Below, one piece after another: positions 9,510-57,854 of a stretch of 64,000 nt of DNA. This DNA is from a virus. The position numbers were made by a program, and so were the translations under genes. Below the pieces are notes generated by a model. It searched no databases. It was not told the origin of the DNA and saw only the letters and a list, made by a program, of their open reading frames with translations. The DNA lies in the IMG/VR virus record IMGVR_UViG_3300003323_000724, positions 1 through 64,000 of that record. One strand, given 5' to 3'. Within the stretch, counting starts at the first letter, position 1. Each line of letters opens with the position of its first letter.

Positions 9510-9794
9510 TCACGCCACCAGTTTGATCTTCGTTCCCCGCAACTCCGGAATCGCTTCCTTCGTCGCTTTCGTCGGCACCAGTTGAACGAGCGAGACCTTC
9601 CCGTCCGCATCCAGTTCCGTCCACTGCTGAGTGTATACGGCCTGCTTGCCCGTTTCTTCACTCACGATCCGAATTCCCATTGCGTGGGATAACGCACAGA
9701 TTGGGATCAGCCTCACGTCTCCGATGCGGCCGCTGAACTCCATCTTCTTCGCGTCGTACTTCAGTTTCTTGGTACTGGTCATTGTCATTGTCAT
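9510..9794 (-). CDS. Hypothetical protein, 94 aa
   Basis: ATG 9794 is preferred (GGAGAG upstream). The protein starts MTMTMTSTKKLKYDAKKMEF and is beta-rich (VRLIPICALSHAMGIRIV, TQQWTELDADGKVSLVQLVP). No family recognised. Transcribed from the promoter copy at 9829-9856. Confidence 0.6.
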   Translation of the reverse strand: MTMTMTSTKKLKYDAKKMEFSGRIGDVRLIPICALSHAMGIRIVSEETGKQAVYTQQWTELDADGKVSLVQLVPTKATKEAIPELRGTKIKLVA

Positions 9795-9828
9795 CTCGGC
9801 TCTCCAGTTCATCGTCTTGTGTGCCTCA

Positions 9829-9856
9829 ACTTTGCCACACGGATTCCGGAAGTCAA
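9829..9856 (-). promoter_or_regulatory. Copy of the repeated phage promoter
   Basis: Minus strand TTGACT, 16 bases ending CGTGTGG, CAAAGT, then TGAGGCAC. Divergent from the copy at 9902. Confidence 0.75.
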
Positions 9857-9901
9857 ATCAGTGCGGGCGAATTTTTATTTTCCCGAATCCGGTCAGTTCG
9901 T

Positions 9902-9930
9902 TTGACGCGGAACCAAACGTGTGGAATAGA
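9902..9930 (+). promoter_or_regulatory. Copy of the repeated phage promoter
   Basis: TTGACG, 17 bases ending CGTGTGG, AATAGA. It matches the shared spacer end but has a weaker -10 and one more spacer base. It drives the Csx16-like gene. Confidence 0.55.
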
Positions 9931-9965
9931 CATGATGTGAAACGAAACCCAAAAGGAGAAGAGAG

Positions 9966-10478
9966 ATGCAACCGCAACAAGTCGACTTGATCGTTAGCCG
10001 TCATCAAGGGGCAATCGAATGGCTCCGCAGTAATCTGTTCCCGGCCGAACGCCCAGCTTACCATCAGGGGGATCGGCTGGAATGGGTGACAATGGAAGAA
10101 GAACCGTCGGTTTATCGAGTGGTTCCCATTAGATCCGAAGTTGCGGTTACGGAAATTGTCGGTGCCCACGTGGTGGGTAATCTTCCACTTCACTTAGCGG
10201 CACTTTTTAGTAGCGTGACCGCGATTGAGTTTGTGGGAACGCCCCCGCGCGGGGCTGAATATGGAGTCCCCGAAATGTGCCGAGCGGGTGCTCGGCTGAA
10301 CCGATACGTTGTGCTACACAAAGAAGATCAAGCCACGTGTCGTACTGTATTTCAAACAGCAATCGACGCCGGAGTCCCCTTCTCGAATACTCCCGACGGA
10401 GGGGTATCAGAAGTAGAGCGTGTCGCGAAGAAGTTTCAGTGCCCATCACGTTTGGCTTACTTTTGTCGGGAAGTATAA
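9966..10478 (+). CDS. Csx16-like protein, possible anti-type III CRISPR factor
   Basis: 170 residues. The opening VDLIVSRHQGAIEWLRS and the later AHVVGNLPLHLAALFSSVTA carry the two signature motifs of the Csx16 family (TIGR02620): 'vsRH.Ga.eWl' and 'v.GnLP.hlAa'. Csx16 was first seen next to type III CRISPR loci; related phage proteins with GVLPLHLAAL are common. Recent work on Csx16 relatives points to binding or breaking cyclic oligoadenylate second messengers, so a phage copy would blunt type III immunity. That role is inferred. About 40 residues inserted in the middle and a C-terminal extension of about 45 residues are unlike the usual short form. No other type III genes are nearby. Confidence 0.7.
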   Translation: MQPQQVDLIVSRHQGAIEWLRSNLFPAERPAYHQGDRLEWVTMEEEPSVYRVVPIRSEVAVTEIVGAHVVGNLPLHLAALFSSVTAIEFVGTPPRGAEYGVPEMCRAGARLNRYVVLHKEDQATCRTVFQTAIDAGVPFSNTPDGGVSEVERVAKKFQCPSRLAYFCREV

Positions 10479-13965: not shown

Positions 13966-14877
13966 ATGACGGATCAGGAGGGACTACTTGCGGCCATTCT
14001 TCGCGATCCGGACGAGGATACCCCGCGACTGATGTACGCGGACGAGGTGCAGCATGCCGAGCCTGACCGTGCCGAGTTTATTCGGGTGCAGTGCGAGTTG
14101 CATCGCATTCGCCAAAGTACACTAAAGGCTCAACGTCGTGGTACAGAATGGCGCACCGCCTCTCGTGGCTACGCCGCATGTGCCCGCCACGAATCCGCTC
14201 TCCTCGCCGCTCACCCCGACTGGTTCCGGGTCGAGTGCCCGGCGTGCATCGACCATGATGGAATGAATCCATGCCCTGGCTGTGGCGGTAGAGGGCCGAT
14301 TTACCGCGACGGTCACGGAATCGAATCTTGCCGAGAGTGTGGCTCAATTGAGTCATCTATTTGCGATACGTGCTCCGGCATCGGCCACATCCCCGGCACC
14401 CCACGTCGCGGGTTCGCGTACTCGTGTGCGGCGACGATGGGGCAGTGCTTCGAGCAGTGGAATAACGGCGGCGACAATCACAGGTTCGTGAGCCGATTGC
14501 GATTCGTCTGGAGCGATCCAGATCAGCGCGGCACGAATCAAAGGTTGGATGCGTACCGCAACGATGGCTCAGTCGTTGCGCCTGGTGACTGGTTCCCCAC
14601 CGAATGGCTGTTGTGCTTGCTGCGAATTTACCCCACGCTGGAGGAGGTGCGGGTAAGCGATGCTGTTCCGTGGGATGCAGTGGGCGTGTCTGGATGGGCG
14701 ATGCACTCGGAAGAAGTTCACCAACCGCCGCATCGTATCCCAGAGATCCTGTACGACGCACTCACGGGCTGGAGTGATATTGATGACGGGTGGAAGTGGT
14801 ATTCCACTCATGACGCCGCCCACACCGCTCTTGCCCGCGCCGTCGTTGCTGTGGCCAAGAAGTACATACAGGAGTAG
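13966..14877 (+). CDS. TIGR02996 protein with Cys-rich zinc region
   Basis: 303 residues. The TIGR02996 domain (LLAAILRDPDEDTPRLMYAD, then RAEFIRVQCEL) occupies the first 45 residues. It is followed by Cys pairs CPACIDHDG, CPGCGGRG, CRECGS and CDTCSGIG, resembling DnaJ-type zinc fingers, and by a C-terminal domain with EWLLCLLRIYPTLEEVRVSD. The gene at 46604 shares this architecture. TIGR02996 is a Gemmata-lineage domain of unknown role, used here as a host marker. The neighbouring DnaJ gene lacks zinc fingers, so the two could cooperate; this is speculation. Confidence 0.75.
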   Translation: MTDQEGLLAAILRDPDEDTPRLMYADEVQHAEPDRAEFIRVQCELHRIRQSTLKAQRRGTEWRTASRGYAACARHESALLAAHPDWFRVECPACIDHDGMNPCPGCGGRGPIYRDGHGIESCRECGSIESSICDTCSGIGHIPGTPRRGFAYSCAATMGQCFEQWNNGGDNHRFVSRLRFVWSDPDQRGTNQRLDAYRNDGSVVAPGDWFPTEWLLCLLRIYPTLEEVRVSDAVPWDAVGVSGWAMHSEEVHQPPHRIPEILYDALTGWSDIDDGWKWYSTHDAAHTALARAVVAVAKKYIQE

Positions 14878-28506: not shown

Positions 28507-29757
28507 ATGAAGAAGGCAAAAGAGAAAGGATCTACGGTTGTTAGAGCTGTGACTTTGCCCGTATCGGTTCCACTGGGAACAGATCCCAGCGGTAAGTCCT
28601 GGACTTGGGAATCGTTCAACGCAGCGATGACGAATGCGTTCCGGCTGTCGACGGATCTGGCCAACTGGTGCGTTCGTCGGTTGTTCATGATTGATGATTC
28701 GGGCAGCACCAAGACACCGGAAGCGATCAAGAAGTGGTACGGGTACAAGGACGCAAACGAGAATTTTCCCCGGATCGCGGGTTGGGCCGGGGCGATGGCG
28801 AGCATGAACATCGTGACTCGAAACGTCCAGCGGAAGTACATTCAGGATCGGTTTTCGGTAATTATCAAGCACGATTCGAGTTTGCTTACGTACCGGTTCC
28901 CGCAGCCGTTTCCGGTTCACAACGCGAGTTGGAAAACGGGCTACGCAGACGGGGATTTCCCAACAGTTAGGATGGCGATTCCGGGAGTGGGTCAGGTGGA
29001 ACTGAGACTGAAACGAAGGGCCGATTTTGGGCGACAGTTGGCAATGTTTCGCCAACTCCACGACGGGACAGCCAAGAAGGGTGAAGCGGCACTCTACCGT
29101 GACAAAAAGGGTGTTCTCTTGCTGAAGATGGTGGGGCACTTTCCGAAGAAGGAGCGGACGGAAGCGGCTAACGTGTGTTTCCTGCACACGGACCCGAACG
29201 CGATGCTAGTGGCTGAGATCAACGGCCGGTCAGTAACCGTGACTAACGGGGACCACCTAAAGCGAGCACACAAGGTTATCCGGGAGATGAACGACAGGCA
29301 CCGGGTGTTCTTGCAACGGATCGGGGAGGACAAGAAACGGGAAGTTCGGATGGATCGGGACCAGCGACAGAACGTGAACAAGAAGGTCGAAGATCGGTGT
29401 AACAAGCAGAGGAACCGAATCGACACGGCCGTGAAACAGATTGCGGCTCAGGTGGCTCGGTTCTTGGAACGACAGAAGGTTGGTCTTGTTGCCTACGATG
29501 ATTCGATCAAGACTTTCCTTCCTGACGGGTTCACTTGGCACGCTTTGAAAACACGGATCACCCAATTGTTTGTTGGTGAGATGGGTGGGGAGTGGATTGA
29601 CGGTAAATTCACACACTTGAAGGACGAAACGGAGAAACAGGAATGGCTGATAAGAGCACGGGCGGTGTACACAACGATTCCGAAAGTCGTGGCACACAAG
29701 TCCCGACCCCGGAAGAAGTCGCATCCGGCGGTGTCGATACCGCCAAAGACCATGTGA
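28507..29757 (+). CDS. Compact Cas12/TnpB-like effector, predicted nuclease-dead
   Basis: 416 residues, RBS AGGAAG before ATG 28507. Residues 30-210 fit the N-terminal helical and wedge domains (LSTDLANWCVRRLF; PQPFPVHNASW; VELRLKRRADFGRQLAMFRQ). A RuvC-like fold begins at about 222 with VCFLHTDPNAMLVAEI (candidate RuvC-I Asp229), followed by the basic bridge-like helical pair (LKRAHKVIREMNDRH; KKVEDRCNKQRNRID) and RuvC-II VGLVAYDDSIKTFLP, where the usual Glu is Asp331. After FTWHALKTRIT the protein ends within about 70 residues: there is no CxxC zinc finger and no RuvC-III Asp. A frame that could restore these is absent. Hence binding without cutting is predicted. A CRISPR array follows 355 bases downstream on the same strand; no cas1, cas2 or transposon ends are seen. 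Alternatives: an exapted TnpB. Type V assignment is inferred from fold order and the adjacent array. Confidence 0.75.
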   Translation: MKKAKEKGSTVVRAVTLPVSVPLGTDPSGKSWTWESFNAAMTNAFRLSTDLANWCVRRLFMIDDSGSTKTPEAIKKWYGYKDANENFPRIAGWAGAMASMNIVTRNVQRKYIQDRFSVIIKHDSSLLTYRFPQPFPVHNASWKTGYADGDFPTVRMAIPGVGQVELRLKRRADFGRQLAMFRQLHDGTAKKGEAALYRDKKGVLLLKMVGHFPKKERTEAANVCFLHTDPNAMLVAEINGRSVTVTNGDHLKRAHKVIREMNDRHRVFLQRIGEDKKREVRMDRDQRQNVNKKVEDRCNKQRNRIDTAVKQIAAQVARFLERQKVGLVAYDDSIKTFLPDGFTWHALKTRITQLFVGEMGGEWIDGKFTHLKDETEKQEWLIRARAVYTTIPKVVAHKSRPRKKSHPAVSIPPKTM

Positions 29758-30111: not shown

Positions 30112-30367
30112 CCGGAACTACTACACCGATCGTTGGAGTGGTGCAGGGTGGCCCGGGTCGAGTACGACGGAAGTACTGGGGCCCGGAACTACTACACCGA
30201 TCGTTGGAGTGGTGCAGGGGCCTGACGGCGTTCGGCCGCGACTTCGCCGGCCTCCCGGAACTACTACACCGATCGTTGGAGTGGTGCAGGTACATGCGCG
30301 CCTCCGGCGCGTTCACGTGCTTGTAGAGATTCCGGAACTACTACACCGATCGTTGGAGTGGTGCAGG
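30112..30367 (+). CRISPR. CRISPR array, four 36-base repeats, three spacers
   Basis: Identical 36-base repeats at 30112-30147, 30183-30218, 30255-30290 and 30332-30367. Each begins CCGGAACTACTACACC and ends GGAGTGGTGCAGG. CTACACC can pair with GGTGCAG (one A-C mismatch) to form a 7-bp stem. Spacers are 35, 36 and 41 bases and unrelated to each other. All four repeats are perfect, with no decayed terminal copy. The spacers are 59-78% GC, above the surrounding genes. The array sits between the effector and the gene starting at 30388. Confidence 0.93.
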
Positions 30368-36315: not shown

Positions 36316-36465
36316 ATGTGGAAGTTTTTGTCACAGTTGAAGGACGGGGAACGGTTTCTATTGCTTTATTTTGGTGGATTTGCTGTTGTCGGTTTGTTGG
36401 TGGGTTTGGGATTTTTCGTGCTTGAGTGCCTGAAGATCATGTTTCCGAACGGAGTCGGGCAATGA
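36316..36465 (+). CDS. Small membrane peptide, 49 aa
   Basis: GTGAGGAGTGGAG precedes ATG 36316; the stop overlaps the polymerase ATG. One membrane helix: FLLLYFGGFAVVGLLVGLGF, then an amphipathic end. Probably a membrane anchor or lysis-type peptide, inserted between nucleotide and polymerase genes. Confidence 0.6.
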   Translation: MWKFLSQLKDGERFLLLYFGGFAVVGLLVGLGFFVLECLKIMFPNGVGQ

Positions 36466-38006
36466 AATGGCTGCCGACACCAGAAGCAATTGCGTTGCTT
36501 CACGAAGGTCAGATGGCGTTAGCCGACATGGAGTCCCACGGGATACGGATCGCTAAAGATTACCTCGAACAGACAATGCAGGAATGCACGAACCGGATCA
36601 AAGAAGTCGAATCGGAAATGATGCGGGATTCGGTGTATCGTTTGTGGCTGCGGAGATTTGGGGACAAGACCAAGCTGAGCAGTCCGGACCAGTTGGCCGA
36701 TGTTGTGTACGGGGATTTGGGGTTCAAGCCGAAGTACAACACCAAGGAAGAGGAGTGGACCGACGACAGCGACGATCGGGGCAGCGCAACTGAAGAGGCT
36801 CTCCAATCGGTGGCATCCGAAGTCCCGTTCGTCAAGAAATACTTCTACGCTCAGAAGTACCGCAAGGCCAAGGGGACGTACCTCGAAGGCATTTGGCGGG
36901 AGATGGTTAAACACAAAGACGGGAACTGGTACGTTCACCCGTCATTTAACCTCAATACGGTAGAAACGTTCAGAAGTTCGTGTAACTCTCCGAACTTCAT
37001 GAATGTGCCCGTTCGATACCCCGAGATCGGGGAAATGATTCGCCGGGCGTACATCCCGCGACCGGGACACCAGTTAGTTGAAGTTGACCTAGGCCAGATC
37101 GAAGTCCGCGTTCCATGCTTCTACAACAAAGATCCCAACCTGCTTTCGTATTGTTGGGACAGTACCAAGGACATGCACCGGGACACGGCCGCGAAGTTGT
37201 TCTTTCTCGATTTGAAGCAGGCGAAGAACAAGGGCGTTCGACACACGGCGAAGAACAAGACGGTTTTTCCCTTCATTTATGGCTCGTGTGCAGCGAACAT
37301 TGCTCCGGCCGTATGGGAGACGATCGACCGCGAGAACTTGATTGTGGAGGGCGAGTTTGTTGAGGAGAGCGGGAAGAAACGGCCACTAACCGTGCGGGAG
37401 CATTTGACTAAAAAGGGCATTACGGAGCTGGGCGAGTGCGACATGGAAAAGTCGCCGATTCCGGGCACGTTTGAGGCCCACGTCAAGAGTCTGGAAAACG
37501 ACTTTTGGCACAAGCAGTTCCCTGTGTTCACTCGGTGGAAACGGGAATGGATCGAGGCGTACCACCGCGAGGGTGGTTGTCGGTTCCTGACCGGGTTCGT
37601 GATGAAGGGGCCGCACATCCGGAACCAGATCACGAACTACCCCATTCAGTCTGTGGCGTTTCACATTCCGCTCTGGGCGATGATCCGAATTAACAAGGTG
37701 CTGAAGAAGTACAAGTTTCGTTCGCGACTCATTGGCGAAGTCCACGACTGCTTGAACTTCGATGTGTGGCCCCCGGAGCGAGACGATGTGATTGACATTG
37801 CAGTGGACTACATGTCGAACCGGGTCAAGAAACACTGGGAATGGATCAATACCCCACTGCCGTGTGAGCCTGAAGTTTGCCCAATTGATGGATCGTGGTT
37901 CGAGAAGCAAAGTATGATTGAGGAAGGTGGTCGGTGGGTTCCGGCGTCGATGGAGAAGTGGCAAAAAGCGCACGGGCCGTGGCAAAACCAAATCATCTGT
38001 AACTAA
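36462..38006 (+). CDS. Family A DNA polymerase (polymerase module)
   Basis: 514 residues from ATG 36462 (ATGA overlap). Motif A: VEVDLGQIEVR (Asp209, Glu214; usual DYSQIELR). Motif B: RHTAKNKTVFPFIYG (Arg260, Lys, Phe, Tyr). Motif C: GEVHDCLNFDV, with the catalytic Asp429 but Cys430 where nearly all relatives have Glu. The 3'-5' exonuclease is split off into 33532 and the 5' nuclease into 44198. Residues 100-130 hold an acidic insert. Clamp (32074) and loader (38022) flank it, forming a compact phage replisome. Confidence 0.88.
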   Translation: MKWLPTPEAIALLHEGQMALADMESHGIRIAKDYLEQTMQECTNRIKEVESEMMRDSVYRLWLRRFGDKTKLSSPDQLADVVYGDLGFKPKYNTKEEEWTDDSDDRGSATEEALQSVASEVPFVKKYFYAQKYRKAKGTYLEGIWREMVKHKDGNWYVHPSFNLNTVETFRSSCNSPNFMNVPVRYPEIGEMIRRAYIPRPGHQLVEVDLGQIEVRVPCFYNKDPNLLSYCWDSTKDMHRDTAAKLFFLDLKQAKNKGVRHTAKNKTVFPFIYGSCAANIAPAVWETIDRENLIVEGEFVEESGKKRPLTVREHLTKKGITELGECDMEKSPIPGTFEAHVKSLENDFWHKQFPVFTRWKREWIEAYHREGGCRFLTGFVMKGPHIRNQITNYPIQSVAFHIPLWAMIRINKVLKKYKFRSRLIGEVHDCLNFDVWPPERDDVIDIAVDYMSNRVKKHWEWINTPLPCEPEVCPIDGSWFEKQSMIEEGGRWVPASMEKWQKAHGPWQNQIICN

Positions 38007-51141: not shown

Positions 51142-51216
51142 TCCCTTCGCTTCCCCAATCATTTCATGCTAAACTGGCTCCATTGGGACACTCAACACCA
51201 ACTCGGAGCCAGTTCG

Positions 51217-54200
51217 ATGGCCGATCCGTACCGCCTACCCGTCTGGGACTACTCCGGGACGTTCGCTCAGGGTAAGTTTTTAGAACCCATCAAGCGACCG
51301 GACGGTAAGTGGTATTGGGCATCTGCCCTAACCCAGCCTAGACACCAGCTCGAAAACAAGGCCGAACTGACGGACTTCCTAGGCATTCATCCGGACAGCA
51401 CTGACTTCGGTTCGCACCACATCGATAGCCATTTAGGTCAACCACTCTCCTCACAGCACGTCTGGATGCACACGGGGGGTGCCGAAGGCGAACCCCCCGT
51501 GTTGGAGCAACCGGACTGGCGTCCAACGGATACAATTCCGGAAGACTTTTACGCTTACGAGGCTGCAAACGGCCCTAGCTTCGCACAGGAAGAACAAACT
51601 CAGCATCAGATAGGCAACTGGTCAGCGGGGCAACAAAACGCAATAGAGACGCAATACGGCGATTCTGGGCAGCACCCACTTGCGGATGAGGATGGTTGGT
51701 TGGTTCAGGACGAATCGAATCCCGTGGAGTTGACCAAGCTCGGACACGACGACCACTTGCGATATCTTCGTCCGTACCACAACGGTCACGATTGGGTTTG
51801 GCGAATTCATCGAATGGAACCGGAAGCAGCAGATTGGCTCGCACTCACTGAGTTGTTCGGAAAAGATCCCATGCATATGACTCCGGAAGAATTCAAGCAC
51901 ATTGGAACTCCGGACCATCAGCACCGACCCCTGACTCCGGACGAGAGGATTGTTGCCGGAATCGACCCAATGCCGGAAGTCGATTGGCGCCCCAATGAAA
52001 CCATTCCCGAAGACTTTTACGCGTTTTCCCGTGGGGAATCTCCCGTGAACTACAACTGTTACTCGTTCCACGACGTGATTGCCAAGCTCCAGCGGGCGGA
52101 CCAGCCGGTTACGTACAACGAAAACGCATTCCTCGAACAGATCCGTCAGAACCCCAATGATTTTACAAACAGGGCCGTCTTTGCGGATTGGCTAGAAGAT
52201 CAGGAACACCCGGACCGCAACCTGTTGGACGCCCTCCGATCGCACCAAGGGTTCGGAACTATCAGTCGAACCCCCCAAGGGTTTCACCTCGATACCCGTT
52301 CCCGCGCCCAACAGGTCGGCGAACGGGTCGGTCGGGCGATGGCCGAATCCGCTGCTCAGTTCGGAGATGACCTGCGAGACAGTCCGAACGGGTTTGAATT
52401 GGACTCACAGGACGCAGACCAATTACACGCGGCCGGCATAGAGTTCGGTTCTCCCGAGTGGAGGGAAGCAGAAAACCATGCCGAACGAGCGTTTTTGGAA
52501 CATTTTAACCCCCCGACACAAAACGACGGGGATGAAGGAATGGTTGATTACGGCTGGTCCGCTCCTCTCCGAACGCGGCCAAAAACGAATGCGTTGGCCC
52601 AGTTTCATGCGCCGGGGTACGAAGTGATTGAGGACCAGCCGCAGCAGATGCAATGGGAAGAGGGCTTACTGCCCCCAACGGCCGTTTCCAAGCACCCCAC
52701 GCAGGAATTTGCAGGCCAATCACTGCGGCCGAACGAACAGGGAACCGTGTGGGACAATCCGTTCCAGCCGTGGGGACAGGACTATGAGCCGGAAACGGGA
52801 CTGTTTCAGCTCCCTTATGCGGAACAATTGGACGACGGGATGTTCGATCAGGAAGGGTTTTTGTTGACTCCCAAAGGAGCGAGCCGTCGTGCGGTCCGGG
52901 GTATTCACTTCGATCCCGAAGTTGGGAATTATCGACTTCATGGGTACTGGATCAATCGGGACGATCAGGGCAATCCGCAGTGGTGGAGCAGAGGACCATC
53001 GATGTGGAAAGGACCGTCTCCCGAACACATTGAGGGCATGATCTACGAACCGGGGGACACTCGGGATCATATGCTTTTCGGTGAAAATCCGGATCGAACC
53101 CCTGTTTCTCCCGAGCACCTGTGGGCACTTGGATTAGGGGGCCAACCGCCGCAAGCCCCCGACGCACCCGATTGGAGAACTCCTGACACAGTTCCAGAGG
53201 ACTTTTATGCGTACGGGAGGGCTGATTACGGCTGGGGCCAAACTCTGAAGTCTGCGTTCGATCTCGGTAAGCAGTACTGGCCCCAGATCGCCGCAGCCGC
53301 ACCGCACGCTTGGAACGCAGCCAAGTCTTGGTGGAACGGAGAAGAAGGATCGTCCCAGCACGCCCAAAACGCTTGGGATTCTTGGAACTCGGCTACGCAG
53401 AACGATGATGATGGGGACATGGTAGGGTATGGCGACTTGTCATCCGAAAAAGCACGGGAAATTCTACATGACGGGACCGTTCACGGGCACCCGATCACGG
53501 ACAAACAGAGGCGATTCTTTGGGTGGAAATCGCACCAGACGGATTATGCTGACGAACTGAACCAGGACGAGAACAATGCGTTCATCCAAACCATCCACGC
53601 AAACCCGCTGGATGCAACGAATCACCTCGTTCATTCGGACTGGCTCCGGGACCGGGGGCACCATGATGAAGCGGAGTTCCGACAAGCGATGGGGGAATGG
53701 GTGAAGGGTTGGAACAGGATTCAAGATTTGCACAAACCCAGATTGGACCCGGATCGACCTTGGATGGTTCCGTTATCGTTTCTTCCTGGTGGAATAGTTG
53801 CCGATAACCTCCCTGGTGCAAGATTTACTGTAGCCCGTGATTACACGGAGCAGGCCAGACAACTGGACCCTCACACTGGAATGCGATTTAGAGACACGTA
53901 TCACTACCCCTCCTACCCCCACATGGAAGAAGCCTTCCGCCGGGCCTTCCATCAGGGTCGAGGGGAACAAACCCAAGCCTCGATGTACGCCGATCCGTAC
54001 CAGTACCCGAGTTTCACCGATATGAGGCTCCCGCCGGCCACTCCCGGGACGGGCGAAATGCTCGATCCCGTCCAACTCGGGTTCACCCAGTGGACCGCAC
54101 CGGGCGGACTCGCACGCATCGCCGGGCCACAGTTCATGCCTACCGATTGGCACTCTCCGTCAATCATGTGGAGCCAGCCGAACGGGGAGGACTACGACCA

Positions 54201-56229
54201 GTTCGGCCAAACTGCCGGCGATCGTGGGGAATACGCACGGGCGGACTACTTCCTTCCCGCTATTGCAGCCGCAGCGGAATCGTTAGCTCCGGCAATGGCT
54301 CGATCTGCCACAATCGGAGCTGCTTCGGACGCGGCCGGGGACCTGTTTGGCGGTGGTGATGACCAGCAAGACTACGCAGCCTACGGAATGGCCCAGTACG
54401 GCGATGAGGAAGACAACCAAGCGTTCCTGAACGCAATCCACGCCAACCCGCTCGACGCAACCAACCACCTCGTTCACGCAGATTGGTTGGACGAACGGGG
54501 GCAGCACGGGGAAGCGGCGTTTCGGCGGGCGATGGGGGAGTGGGCTGCGAGAACCAGTCCCCATCTTCTGGACGTTACTCCATCTCGTGTCGAAGGAACT
54601 CACGGAATTTCGACACGAGCAATTCCTTCGTGGGTCAACGGGAGGATAGGAGTATCCTCAACAAGCTCCGATCCAAATATCGGCTACTCCCCTAATTCCC
54701 TTTGGACTTATTTCCACGGGTTCGGTCCAATGGAAGAAGCCTTCCGCCGGGCCTTCCACGCGAACCAAAACACGGTCCAACCGGGCCAAATACCCGCCGA
54801 TCTGGGGGACGACAGCGACGTGAGGATGGGTGGGGGCGAACAACCGGTTGAGTTTGCCGCTTACAGCCAGATACACACCACTCACCCCGATGACGAGTCC
54901 GGCTGGGGCGAACCGGACTTTCGCCGGGAGGACGAGATTGCTAACTGGGTGAGTTCCCCGATCCCGCACCCGCACGACAACTTTCCGGGGACGCCGAGCG
55001 CTTACGCCGGCCACGTCAACCAACCCAACTGGGGCAACGTTGACGGAATCATGCGGGCGATTCCCGAGAACAAGTTCGTCGGTGGGAAGTACGGGTACAA
55101 GTCCGCTGCGAACTACGAGGGCGAAGAGGAAGCCTTTCAACAGGCCATTCACCAGAACCCGTTCGAGTTCGTTAACCACGGGGCATATGCGGACTGGCTC
55201 CGAGAGCAAGGAAGGCACGAGGACGCCGATTTCCGAACGAACATGGGGGAATGGATGCAATCCCGGGCAGCGGGGCATGATAATGGATTTCTTCCCGTGC
55301 CGACAGTCGTTCGGCACACGGAAGCCCCGCAGTGGGCCAAGGGGAAGATTCGCATCGAGAACATTTTCACGCCCCATGCCAAAGACGCTCCGTTCCGGTG
55401 GGACTCGCGACACGTCGGGTGGGACAGTTACCCGCAGATGGAAGAGGCTCTCCGACGTGCGCACGATTTCGTCGGTCCTCCGGTTCAGCAACACGAAGAA
55501 ACACCGAACTGGTTCCGAGATCGGGAGTACCTAAGTAATGATGCCCATCCGATGAACTACGAGCACGACTGGATGGGGCCGACGGACTATGCTCCACCGG
55601 AAAGTCTCTATGCTGCTTACGGCGATCCGGGCGACAACGGCACCACCGCATCGGCCGGGAACACGCAGGAGTGGAACTACCAGCCGAAGAATTATTGGGA
55701 AACAACCCGGTACGGCGATTTGACTTCGATGGAATATGGGGCATATTTGGGGTACGCGGACGATCAGTACGAAGACGAGCACCAGCCCGAATCGGAGATT
55801 CCAGTGGAAGAAACTACCCCGACCAGACCAGAGTTGTTAAACGGTGCTTTGGTTTCTGCTGCACTCAAGCCGTCTCGTAAGCGGGGGCCGAACGTGGGCC
55901 AATTTGATCGGGCTGCAATGGGAGCACTTGGAGACCACCTCCAAGAAATCGGGAATCCACTAGGAGTTGCCGTTTCCCATTTCGTCCGAACCGGACAGAA
56001 CATCCCGTTTTCGTCCCTGTCGGGAACTTCGGAACACGAAGTGTCAACGGCCGATGGTTCACACCAAGTGTTCGGTCGGCGTGGGATCAGTCGAGACGGG
56101 AAGCCGATTGTGTGGACTGTGATTAAGCAAAACAAACCACGCCAACACCCAGACGGACGAATTATTTGGGATAGTGACAAGTCCCACAGTTTTGCTGTTC
56201 CGGCTGAGTTGTTCGACCAACCACAATAA
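51217..56229 (+). CDS. Giant modular protein with four TIGR02996 repeats
   Basis: 1670 residues from ATG 51217. Repeated short blocks 'DWRPTDTIPEDFYAY' occur about three times (near 105, 255, 655). TIGR02996 copies are at about 300-345 (NPNDFTNRAVFADWL), 785-830 (NPLDATNHLVHSDWL), 1062-1108 (NPLDATNHLVHADWL) and 1300-1346 (NPFEFVNHGAYADWL). The last three form ~120-residue modules that each end in MEEAFRRAFH or MEEALRRA. The C-terminal part differs and holds FSSLSGTSEHEVSTADG. No membrane or signal segment. Its place between the terminase genes suggests a virion or portal-associated protein; the family is not recognised. Confidence 0.75.
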   Translation: MADPYRLPVWDYSGTFAQGKFLEPIKRPDGKWYWASALTQPRHQLENKAELTDFLGIHPDSTDFGSHHIDSHLGQPLSSQHVWMHTGGAEGEPPVLEQPDWRPTDTIPEDFYAYEAANGPSFAQEEQTQHQIGNWSAGQQNAIETQYGDSGQHPLADEDGWLVQDESNPVELTKLGHDDHLRYLRPYHNGHDWVWRIHRMEPEAADWLALTELFGKDPMHMTPEEFKHIGTPDHQHRPLTPDERIVAGIDPMPEVDWRPNETIPEDFYAFSRGESPVNYNCYSFHDVIAKLQRADQPVTYNENAFLEQIRQNPNDFTNRAVFADWLEDQEHPDRNLLDALRSHQGFGTISRTPQGFHLDTRSRAQQVGERVGRAMAESAAQFGDDLRDSPNGFELDSQDADQLHAAGIEFGSPEWREAENHAERAFLEHFNPPTQNDGDEGMVDYGWSAPLRTRPKTNALAQFHAPGYEVIEDQPQQMQWEEGLLPPTAVSKHPTQEFAGQSLRPNEQGTVWDNPFQPWGQDYEPETGLFQLPYAEQLDDGMFDQEGFLLTPKGASRRAVRGIHFDPEVGNYRLHGYWINRDDQGNPQWWSRGPSMWKGPSPEHIEGMIYEPGDTRDHMLFGENPDRTPVSPEHLWALGLGGQPPQAPDAPDWRTPDTVPEDFYAYGRADYGWGQTLKSAFDLGKQYWPQIAAAAPHAWNAAKSWWNGEEGSSQHAQNAWDSWNSATQNDDDGDMVGYGDLSSEKAREILHDGTVHGHPITDKQRRFFGWKSHQTDYADELNQDENNAFIQTIHANPLDATNHLVHSDWLRDRGHHDEAEFRQAMGEWVKGWNRIQDLHKPRLDPDRPWMVPLSFLPGGIVADNLPGARFTVARDYTEQARQLDPHTGMRFRDTYHYPSYPHMEEAFRRAFHQGRGEQTQASMYADPYQYPSFTDMRLPPATPGTGEMLDPVQLGFTQWTAPGGLARIAGPQFMPTDWHSPSIMWSQPNGEDYDQFGQTAGDRGEYARADYFLPAIAAAAESLAPAMARSATIGAASDAAGDLFGGGDDQQDYAAYGMAQYGDEEDNQAFLNAIHANPLDATNHLVHADWLDERGQHGEAAFRRAMGEWAARTSPHLLDVTPSRVEGTHGISTRAIPSWVNGRIGVSSTSSDPNIGYSPNSLWTYFHGFGPMEEAFRRAFHANQNTVQPGQIPADLGDDSDVRMGGGEQPVEFAAYSQIHTTHPDDESGWGEPDFRREDEIANWVSSPIPHPHDNFPGTPSAYAGHVNQPNWGNVDGIMRAIPENKFVGGKYGYKSAANYEGEEEAFQQAIHQNPFEFVNHGAYADWLREQGRHEDADFRTNMGEWMQSRAAGHDNGFLPVPTVVRHTEAPQWAKGKIRIENIFTPHAKDAPFRWDSRHVGWDSYPQMEEALRRAHDFVGPPVQQHEETPNWFRDREYLSNDAHPMNYEHDWMGPTDYAPPESLYAAYGDPGDNGTTASAGNTQEWNYQPKNYWETTRYGDLTSMEYGAYLGYADDQYEDEHQPESEIPVEETTPTRPELLNGALVSAALKPSRKRGPNVGQFDRAAMGALGDHLQEIGNPLGVAVSHFVRTGQNIPFSSLSGTSEHEVSTADGSHQVFGRRGISRDGKPIVWTVIKQNKPRQHPDGRIIWDSDKSHSFAVPAELFDQPQ

Positions 56230-56231
56230 CC

Positions 56232-57854
56232 ATGTCCGCCAACACATCCGATCTTGCCAAAGCACTGGCCCGGGTCTACGGCTCACGGGCCGTAGACCGC
56301 CTCGTTTCCACGCCCGTCGCCAGTTCGGACGACATGGCGAAGTACCACGACGATCCGGTGGGGTTCATCCGCGATGCGTTTGGAATAGACCTGACAATGC
56401 CGCAGTTGAACGCGGCATTGGCAATGCCCGGACGAATTAAAATCAATTCAGGGCACGGGTTAGGTAAAACTCTCCTGTGCGCCGCTCTTGCCATTTGGTG
56501 GTACGCGACCCGGAATCCCGGCGTGGTCATCATTACCGCACCCACCAGCCACCACATCACTACGGTTCTGTTTGCTGAAATTAGACTCCTGCTCGCCAAG
56601 TGTCGTATTAAACTGCCCGGGACCCTGTCGCCCAAGGCACCCCTCTTGTACGACTCACCGGAGCACTGGATCGAAGGATTTACGAGTTCATCGGGGGAAG
56701 GTTTCCAAGGTCGTCACCGCGCGAGCATGTTTTTCATCTTTGACGAGTGCGAAGACGTAGACGCGGTATATTGGCAAACTACCGAAACGATGTACAAGGA
56801 CGGAGAAGACCATGCTTGGCTTACCGTTGGTAATCCATTAACAACGTCTTCGCAAAGCTACCTTGAAGACTTGGCCGAACGGGAGGACGGAACGCCGAAA
56901 TGGAAGCAGTACGTATTGTCCTCGATGGATCACCCCAACATCATCGCTCAACTCAATGGTGAACCACCGCCGATACCCAACGCGGTTACGCTTCACCAAG
57001 TTAACCAGTGGGTCAAGGACTGGACCGATCCGGTTCAATTTGGCGACATCAAGCCATTGGACTTCGAGTGGCCCGTAGGATCACAGAAGTGGCGCAGACC
57101 ATCCCCGATCTTTAAGGGCCGCGTTCTCGGCATTCGACCGACGGAAGGGGTTGATACGGTTTGGGGCGCCGTTGTGTGGCAAATGGCCACGACACGAACT
57201 GCTAACCCCTCCGCTTGTTGGTGGGGCGAATACGGTATTACAATTGGTGTGGACGTTGCTATGTTCGGGGACGATTCAACGGCCATTCACCTTCGCAGTG
57301 GTCCGATGAGTTTGCTGCACGAGGAACACAACGGCTGGACACCTCAGCAAACGGCCGGTCGTCTGAAGGACTTGTGCGTTGAGTACGCTGACGTTTACAA
57401 CTCGTGGGCGGTGATCCCCACTCGTCCGCGACTGGAACCGTCTGACGTTAGCGTAGTTATCGAAGTGGATGGGTACGGGTATTCGGTACTGTCACACTGT
57501 GACGGGTTTGGTAACTGGTCCGGGTTTAAGGCCGGGGAAGCATCGACCGCTTTGGACCATAAGGGCCAGCCCCGGTACACGAAAAGACGGAGCGAGATGT
57601 GGTTCACCGGTAAGGAAAAGGCTATGGGGGGCCAAATGGACCTGTCGTACTTACCCCAAGACGTGTTGCAGAAACTTCGACTGGAACTGATGTCGTCCAT
57701 GTATTGGGCGACATCATCGGGGGCAATTCAGGTCGAAGAGAAAGTGGACATCAAGAAGCGGCTGAAAAAGTCCCCAGACGGGGCCGACGCACTGCTAGTT
57801 TGCTACGCGGACGTAACTTCGGATCTTCCAATGGCGATAATCAGGGGGGAGTAG
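56232..57854 (+). CDS. terL: Terminase large subunit
   Basis: 540 residues. Walker A SGHGLGKT (73-80), Walker B FFIFDECEDV, and the C-terminal nuclease with GVDVAMFGDDST (first Asp), VIEVDGYGYSVL and SPDGADALLVCYAD (last Asp). The ATPase drives DNA into the capsid and the RNase H-fold nuclease cuts concatemers. N-terminal about 45 residues are an extension. Starts two bases after the giant gene. Confidence 0.9.
   Translation: MSANTSDLAKALARVYGSRAVDRLVSTPVASSDDMAKYHDDPVGFIRDAFGIDLTMPQLNAALAMPGRIKINSGHGLGKTLLCAALAIWWYATRNPGVVIITAPTSHHITTVLFAEIRLLLAKCRIKLPGTLSPKAPLLYDSPEHWIEGFTSSSGEGFQGRHRASMFFIFDECEDVDAVYWQTTETMYKDGEDHAWLTVGNPLTTSSQSYLEDLAEREDGTPKWKQYVLSSMDHPNIIAQLNGEPPPIPNAVTLHQVNQWVKDWTDPVQFGDIKPLDFEWPVGSQKWRRPSPIFKGRVLGIRPTEGVDTVWGAVVWQMATTRTANPSACWWGEYGITIGVDVAMFGDDSTAIHLRSGPMSLLHEEHNGWTPQQTAGRLKDLCVEYADVYNSWAVIPTRPRLEPSDVSVVIEVDGYGYSVLSHCDGFGNWSGFKAGEASTALDHKGQPRYTKRRSEMWFTGKEKAMGGQMDLSYLPQDVLQKLRLELMSSMYWATSSGAIQVEEKVDIKKRLKKSPDGADALLVCYADVTSDLPMAIIRGE

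Follow-up and report, generated by a model that had tools for sequence, protein, structure and literature searches.

A divergent Csx16-family protein, a candidate cA4 ring nuclease, in a tailed phage with a probable Gemmataceae host

The gene and its surroundings

The DNA analysed here, called the window, is a stretch of 64,000 nucleotides, positions 1 to 64,000 of the IMG/VR virus record IMGVR_UViG_3300003323_000724, which has a full length of 103,939 bases (104 kb). On its plus strand, positions 9966-10478 hold an intact open reading frame that starts with ATG and codes for a Csx16-like protein of 170 amino acids, P0001; the minus strand of the same interval is interrupted by stops, and the frame is open on the plus strand only. 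As for its translation signals, the sequence AAAAGGAGA was read directly at 9951-9959 of the plus strand, with GGAG at 9955-9958; it is separated from the ATG by 6 nt and was rated a good ribosome-binding site.

The gene opens a rightward run and is preceded by a divergent intergenic region of 153 nt (9813-9965), the upstream gene (9510-9812) being oriented in the opposite direction. Its neighbours code for a dCTP-deaminase-like protein, a protein with a DnaJ domain and unknown proteins, and no neighbour had a match pointing to another anti-defence gene. Finally, a scan for promoters and terminators around the gene returned a number of sites not above that of shuffled sequence.

Family assignment

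On sequence comparison, P0001 is a divergent but real member of the Csx16 family: PF09652 (Cas_VVA1548, which is Csx16) matches it with 33.3 bits and an E value of 5.4e-8, above the gathering score of 25 bits, and the PADLOC Csx16 models match with 9.8e-9 and 1.9e-7. The original prediction had deduced a Csx16-type identity from two peptides; both are present, and the identity is borne out by these profiles. Regarding the narrower NCBIfam model, TIGR02620, P0001 scored 17.7 bits against a cut-off of 46.35, and it is therefore a divergent member and not an equivalog by the rule of NCBI.

A PHROGs search assigned no family to P0001, and no match was returned by exact-peptide scans of viral and genome contigs with P0001 only or by tblastn of P0001 against phage records; the viral relatives described below were reached solely via alignments of relatives, and not with P0001 by itself.

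Conserved motifs, extra segments and predicted structure

Three motifs of the family were located on the plus strand in alignment A7: VSRHQGA (residues 10-16; 9993-10013) in the loop after strand 1, GNLPLHLA (residues 71-78; 10176-10199) in the loop after strand 3, and PRGAEY (residues 94-99; 10245-10262). Aligned with 29 relatives, P0001 retains R12-H13-x-G15, V69-x-G71-x-L73-P74-x-x-L77 and R95-G96; among these 30 sequences the columns of H13, G71, P74 and G96 are invariant, and those of R12, G15 and R95 nearly so. The conserved loops are kept while the rest diverges, with about 20-40% identity over the alignment.

P0001 has two further segments, a middle insert at about residues 29-51 (10050-10118) and a C-terminal extension at residues 118-170 (10317-10475). 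Both had been called unusual at the outset, and both are indeed extra relative to the family in the alignments; the insert is not unique to P0001, because a shorter insert occupies the corresponding loop of its nearest relative, L073.

The AlphaFold2 model of the monomer, built with 22 sequences, is of only moderate confidence (mean pLDDT of 70.3, pTM of 0.63), and it displays a five-stranded alpha/beta core with the order beta-alpha-beta-alpha-beta-alpha-beta-alpha-beta, the strands being residues 8-10, 50-56, 68-71, 83-88 and 110-115. In this model the insert is a beta-hairpin (37-43 with 50-56) placed before strand 2, of low confidence (pLDDT 51-55), and it leads into strand 2 close to the motif loops; the C-terminal extension starts with a confident helix (119-134), followed by a poorly predicted tail. 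Foldseek returned no significant match for the model in PDB or BFVD, and no Csx16 emerged from a profile search of PDB; therefore, the predicted fold is consistent with the derived Rossmann, CARF-like, five-stranded fold of Csx16 and does not prove it.

The phage and its own mini CRISPR system

The record is that of a tailed phage. It contains a terminase (56232-57854, with a TerL profile match), a DNA polymerase I-like gene (36426-38006) and, from inspection of the open reading frame lists by eye, helicase, clamp and structural genes. The window had been described as devoid of a type III locus, and this extends to the whole 104-kb record, in which a profile search for the Cas10 palm domain found no match.

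The phage carries a CRISPR system of another kind. A Cas12f-like gene of 416 amino acids at 28507-29757 (PADLOC Cas12f, 4e-7; Cas12u3, 1.5e-6) is followed downstream by an array (30112-30367) with four exact copies of the 36-nt repeat CCGGAACTACTACACCGATCGTTGGAGTGGTGCAGG, at 30112, 30183, 30255 and 30332, and three spacers of 35, 36 and 41 nt. By eye, the protein seems to have altered RuvC-like motifs (VAEING, VAYDD) and may therefore be weak as a nuclease. Searches for relatives of the Cas12f-like gene in phages and viruses found none, and the repeat had no copy in 95 Gemmataceae genomes and no exact match elsewhere in IMG/VR.

As for the spacers, the third one (30291-30331) matches the chromosomal nrdB gene, which codes for the beta subunit of ribonucleotide reductase, at 40 of 41 positions in three Gemmata-like genomes and at 35-38 of 41 in another three; it is antisense to the gene, and by these matches it appears to be a phage spacer directed against a conserved host gene. 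The first spacer (30148-30182) is 95% identical over 37 bases to sequence in the 3' portion of a gene for a large serine recombinase (genome G015, L089), which suggests that its target is a competing mobile element. This mini CRISPR system is a lead separate from the finding on P0001. It leaves P0001 on a mobile element without a type III system of its own: the record has tailed-phage genes and no Cas10, and the Cas12f-like gene with its mini-array is of a different type.

The presumed host

The host probably belongs to the Gemmataceae, that is, to Gemmata-like bacteria. The main ground is the TIGR02996 domain, the Gemmata repeat-companion domain named for Gemmata obscuriglobus, which occurs in at least seven proteins of the window (at 13966, 22856, 32892, 50122, 51166, 60659 and 61453) and has its best genome matches in Gemmataceae and other Planctomycetota; the second is the phage spacer that matches the chromosomal nrdB. 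One phage protein of 1687 amino acids (51166-56229) contains four TIGR02996 domains. In the reverse direction, 20 kb of the phage were searched against the Gemmataceae genomes, and no host spacer against the phage was demonstrated; the best matches were between host genes and spacers of the phage itself.

Other viral copies of Csx16

Three profile scans of IMG/VR identified 23 further contigs with relatives of P0001, corresponding to about 20 distinct proteins once near-copies (L046/L047 and L062/L063/L064) were merged. None of the 23 contigs had a Cas10 palm domain, and 15 had a TerL match (16 of 24 records with that of the window included); the relatives recur in unrelated viruses, with a GC content from 0.32 to 0.70. 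A cellular Csx16 used as query also found the Methanobacterium viruses Drs3 and PhiF3, whose copies are annotated as Csx16, so that P0001 is not the first phage Csx16. A published survey located Csx16 in two phage genomes (PMC12409355), which we infer to be these two.

The phylogenetic tree unites the four cell-derived copies with a support of 99/94 and places P0001 in a clade with L073 and L046 (99/97). Of the 21 bacterial-virus rows, 20 fall, with the copies of the archaeal viruses and of an Allomeiothermus plasmid, on the far side of a branch supported at 92/90. L073 is the nearest relative of P0001, with 47% over 93 columns of the tree. The CRISPR-linked copies have a longer segment before strand 4, of the CARGARYLHL type, which is mostly missing from the viral ones. 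On these sequences the viral copies appear to stand mostly apart from the sampled CRISPR-linked Csx16, a separation that is suggestive only, since the tree holds just four CRISPR- or cell-linked rows and about 94 columns.

Some of the relatives have peculiar architectures. The plasmid of Allomeiothermus silvanus, pMESIL02, codes for two long Csx16 proteins of 671 and 261 amino acids (L005, 5998-8013, and L044, 2989-3774), and in both there is what looks by eye like a second, degenerate Csx16-like domain (GxxPxHAAA and GTVPLYLAAEA), as in a fused pair. Another viral Csx16 (L045, 7593-8417) may carry, in frame, an N-terminal extension resembling a zinc finger (CPYCGRVF...H..H); its start is uncertain.

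Type III systems in the host family

Csx16 (PF09652) was not found in any of the 95 genomes of Gemmataceae; of 392 planctomycete genomes, one had it, next to what appears by eye to be a RAMP-type gene. Of the 95 Gemmataceae genomes, 26 had a Cas10-type palm match above the cut-off, and 17 had matches of at least 97 bits; the weak matches may include other cyclases, and 26 of 95 is therefore an upper figure. The strong matches are surrounded by Cmr1, Cmr3, Cmr4 and Cmr6, the genes of type III-B, and among the loci that were read, several code for CARF-HEPN proteins of the Csx1 type, one for a CARF nuclease like Card1/Can2 and one for a CARF-RelE protein.

The Csx1 of one such genome (L092) matches positions 1-374 of the 478 of the PADLOC model CARF_HEPN_CSX16 (7.8e-118), and it ends where the Csx16 part of the model would start; the match of P0001 to this model spans positions 387-474. 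This is a fusion model, and thus in other organisms this type of Csx1 is fused to its own Csx16. That the Csx16 part is absent from the L092 genome and is carried by the phage is circumstantial, and it is the most telling point of this kind for the mechanism proposed below.

A check of host genomes for type III loci had been suggested, and its outcome is divided: the family has Cas10-type proteins and CARF effectors, but the six Gemmata-like genomes best matched by the spacer (G015-G018, G028 and G053) had no Cas10 by two models. Regarding other signalling systems, a SMODS cyclase occurs in 7 of the 95 Gemmataceae genomes and in none of these six.

Proposed function and alternatives

The original prediction had linked the Csx16 family to type III signalling, with evidence for the turnover of cyclic oligoadenylates, and this link is stronger than stated: in a buffer containing EDTA, a tested Csx16 broke down cA4 completely but neither cA3 nor cA6, a specificity for cA4 that persisted at high enzyme concentration, and the conserved residues of the family cluster on a modelled AMP-binding face (PMC12409355). 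Given this published activity, the best reading of P0001 is that of a phage cA4 ring nuclease that would protect the phage from type III immunity, as AcrIII-1 does; we assign this reading a probability of about 0.72.

P0001 has the Csx16-family core with all the conserved motifs. From the properties of the family, it would dimerize, adopt a derived Rossmann (CARF-like) fold and bind cyclic tetra-adenylate on a face made of the SRHxG, GxLP and RG loops; the cut would be metal-free and would release linear oligoadenylates that are short and bear a 2',3'-cyclic phosphate. The gene adjoins those of replication and nucleotide metabolism, and P0001 would be produced during infection and remove the cA4 made by the Cas10 of a host type III-B system; Csx1, the Card1/Can2-like nuclease and other CARF effectors would then stay inactive, and P0001 would therefore act as an anti-CRISPR working like AcrIII-1, from an unrelated protein family. 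More speculatively, a role as a cap over the ligand site or as an extension of the dimer may be envisaged for the beta-hairpin insert and the C-terminal helices.

That the copy in the phage acts as an anti-CRISPR, as first claimed, is likely, in that the host family has Cas10 and CARF effectors without Csx16 and viral copies are many; it is tempered by the genomes closest to the presumed host, which are without Cas10.

Some of the same observations could be accommodated if P0001 were a cA4 sponge, binding its ligand without cutting it, with the insert and the extension holding it in place. Phage sponge proteins counter CBASS and Thoeris, and P0001 is divergent, with two extra segments near the fold; furthermore, Csx15, a relative in the CARF superfamily, is a good cA4 binder and a very slow nuclease (PMC13148439). 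However, P0001 retains every motif of the active Csx16 family, the tested Csx16 is an efficient nuclease (PMC12409355), and it has been argued that type III systems make so much signal that sponging is less effective (PMC13148439), which leaves the sponge an unlikely explanation.

It is also doubtful that P0001 targets another cyclic nucleotide, either a cA3 of the CBASS type or one of the type III signals besides cA4, with the insert altering its specificity. The position of the insert near the motif loops in the AlphaFold2 model, the SMODS cyclases of the Gemmataceae and the lack of Cas10 in the genomes nearest the presumed host speak for such a change, but the cA4 specificity of the tested enzyme (PMC12409355) and the lack of SMODS cyclases in the same six genomes speak against it.

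A decayed or re-purposed Csx16-like fold acting outside cyclic nucleotide turnover, for instance as a regulator or a binding protein, would agree with the divergence, with the extra segments and with the lack of a solved structure of the Csx16 family for comparison; it is improbable, as the conserved loops are kept against a diverged background, the gene is intact with its ribosome-binding site, and relatives recur in unrelated viruses across that wide GC range. Finally, a chance resemblance, for instance to an ankyrin repeat (LPLHLAA resembles the ankyrin TPLHLAA), is refuted for practical purposes: phmmer and profile searches of PDB with P0001 returned only designed ankyrin proteins, spurious matches through one motif, but Pfam has no ankyrin match in P0001, three separate Csx16 motifs occur in the correct order, and PF09652 matches 30 of the 30 aligned sequences.

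Comparison with known systems

P0001 shares its core and motifs with the CRISPR-associated Csx16, the cA4 ring nuclease found in type III loci (PMC12409355), and differs from it in several respects: it resides in a phage and outside a type III locus, as a viral copy should, such a location being no requirement of PF09652; it falls below the TIGR02620 cut-off; it lacks the longer approach to strand 4; and it adds an insert of ~23 residues and a C-terminal extension of ~53. The Csx16 proteins of Drs3 and PhiF3 are virus-encoded and stand-alone as P0001 is, but they belong to archaeal viruses, are compact (about 103 amino acids) and form their own clade in the tree. The closest viral copies, L073 and L046, share with P0001 the AIEF and PRGAEY-type motifs and have no C-terminal extension of its kind; their genomes have a GC content of 0.70 and 0.34, respectively, and the Gemmataceae marker is absent from the stretches read.

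As for AcrIII-1, the viral ring nuclease of the Crn2 type, its activity and anti-CRISPR effect are published, as cited in PMC12409355. The destruction of cA4 proposed for P0001 would be alike, but the protein families are different; the likeness is one of function only, no membership is claimed, and on the side of P0001 the function is the one proposed above.

Significance

Ring nucleases in phages, and Csx16 among them, are already known; as far as the tools used here show, what is new is the breadth of virus-borne Csx16 and its presence in a phage of a presumed planctomycete host. To the two phage genomes of the published survey, the present search adds about 20 more distinct viral proteins. 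If the proposed function is true, Csx16 would not be a rarity and would join Crn2/AcrIII-1 as a ring nuclease recurrently used by viruses; it would also provide a counter-defence gene for phages of the phylum Planctomycetes, few of which have been studied, and the viral copies would be divergent natural variants with which to map the undescribed active site of Csx16 and its specificity.
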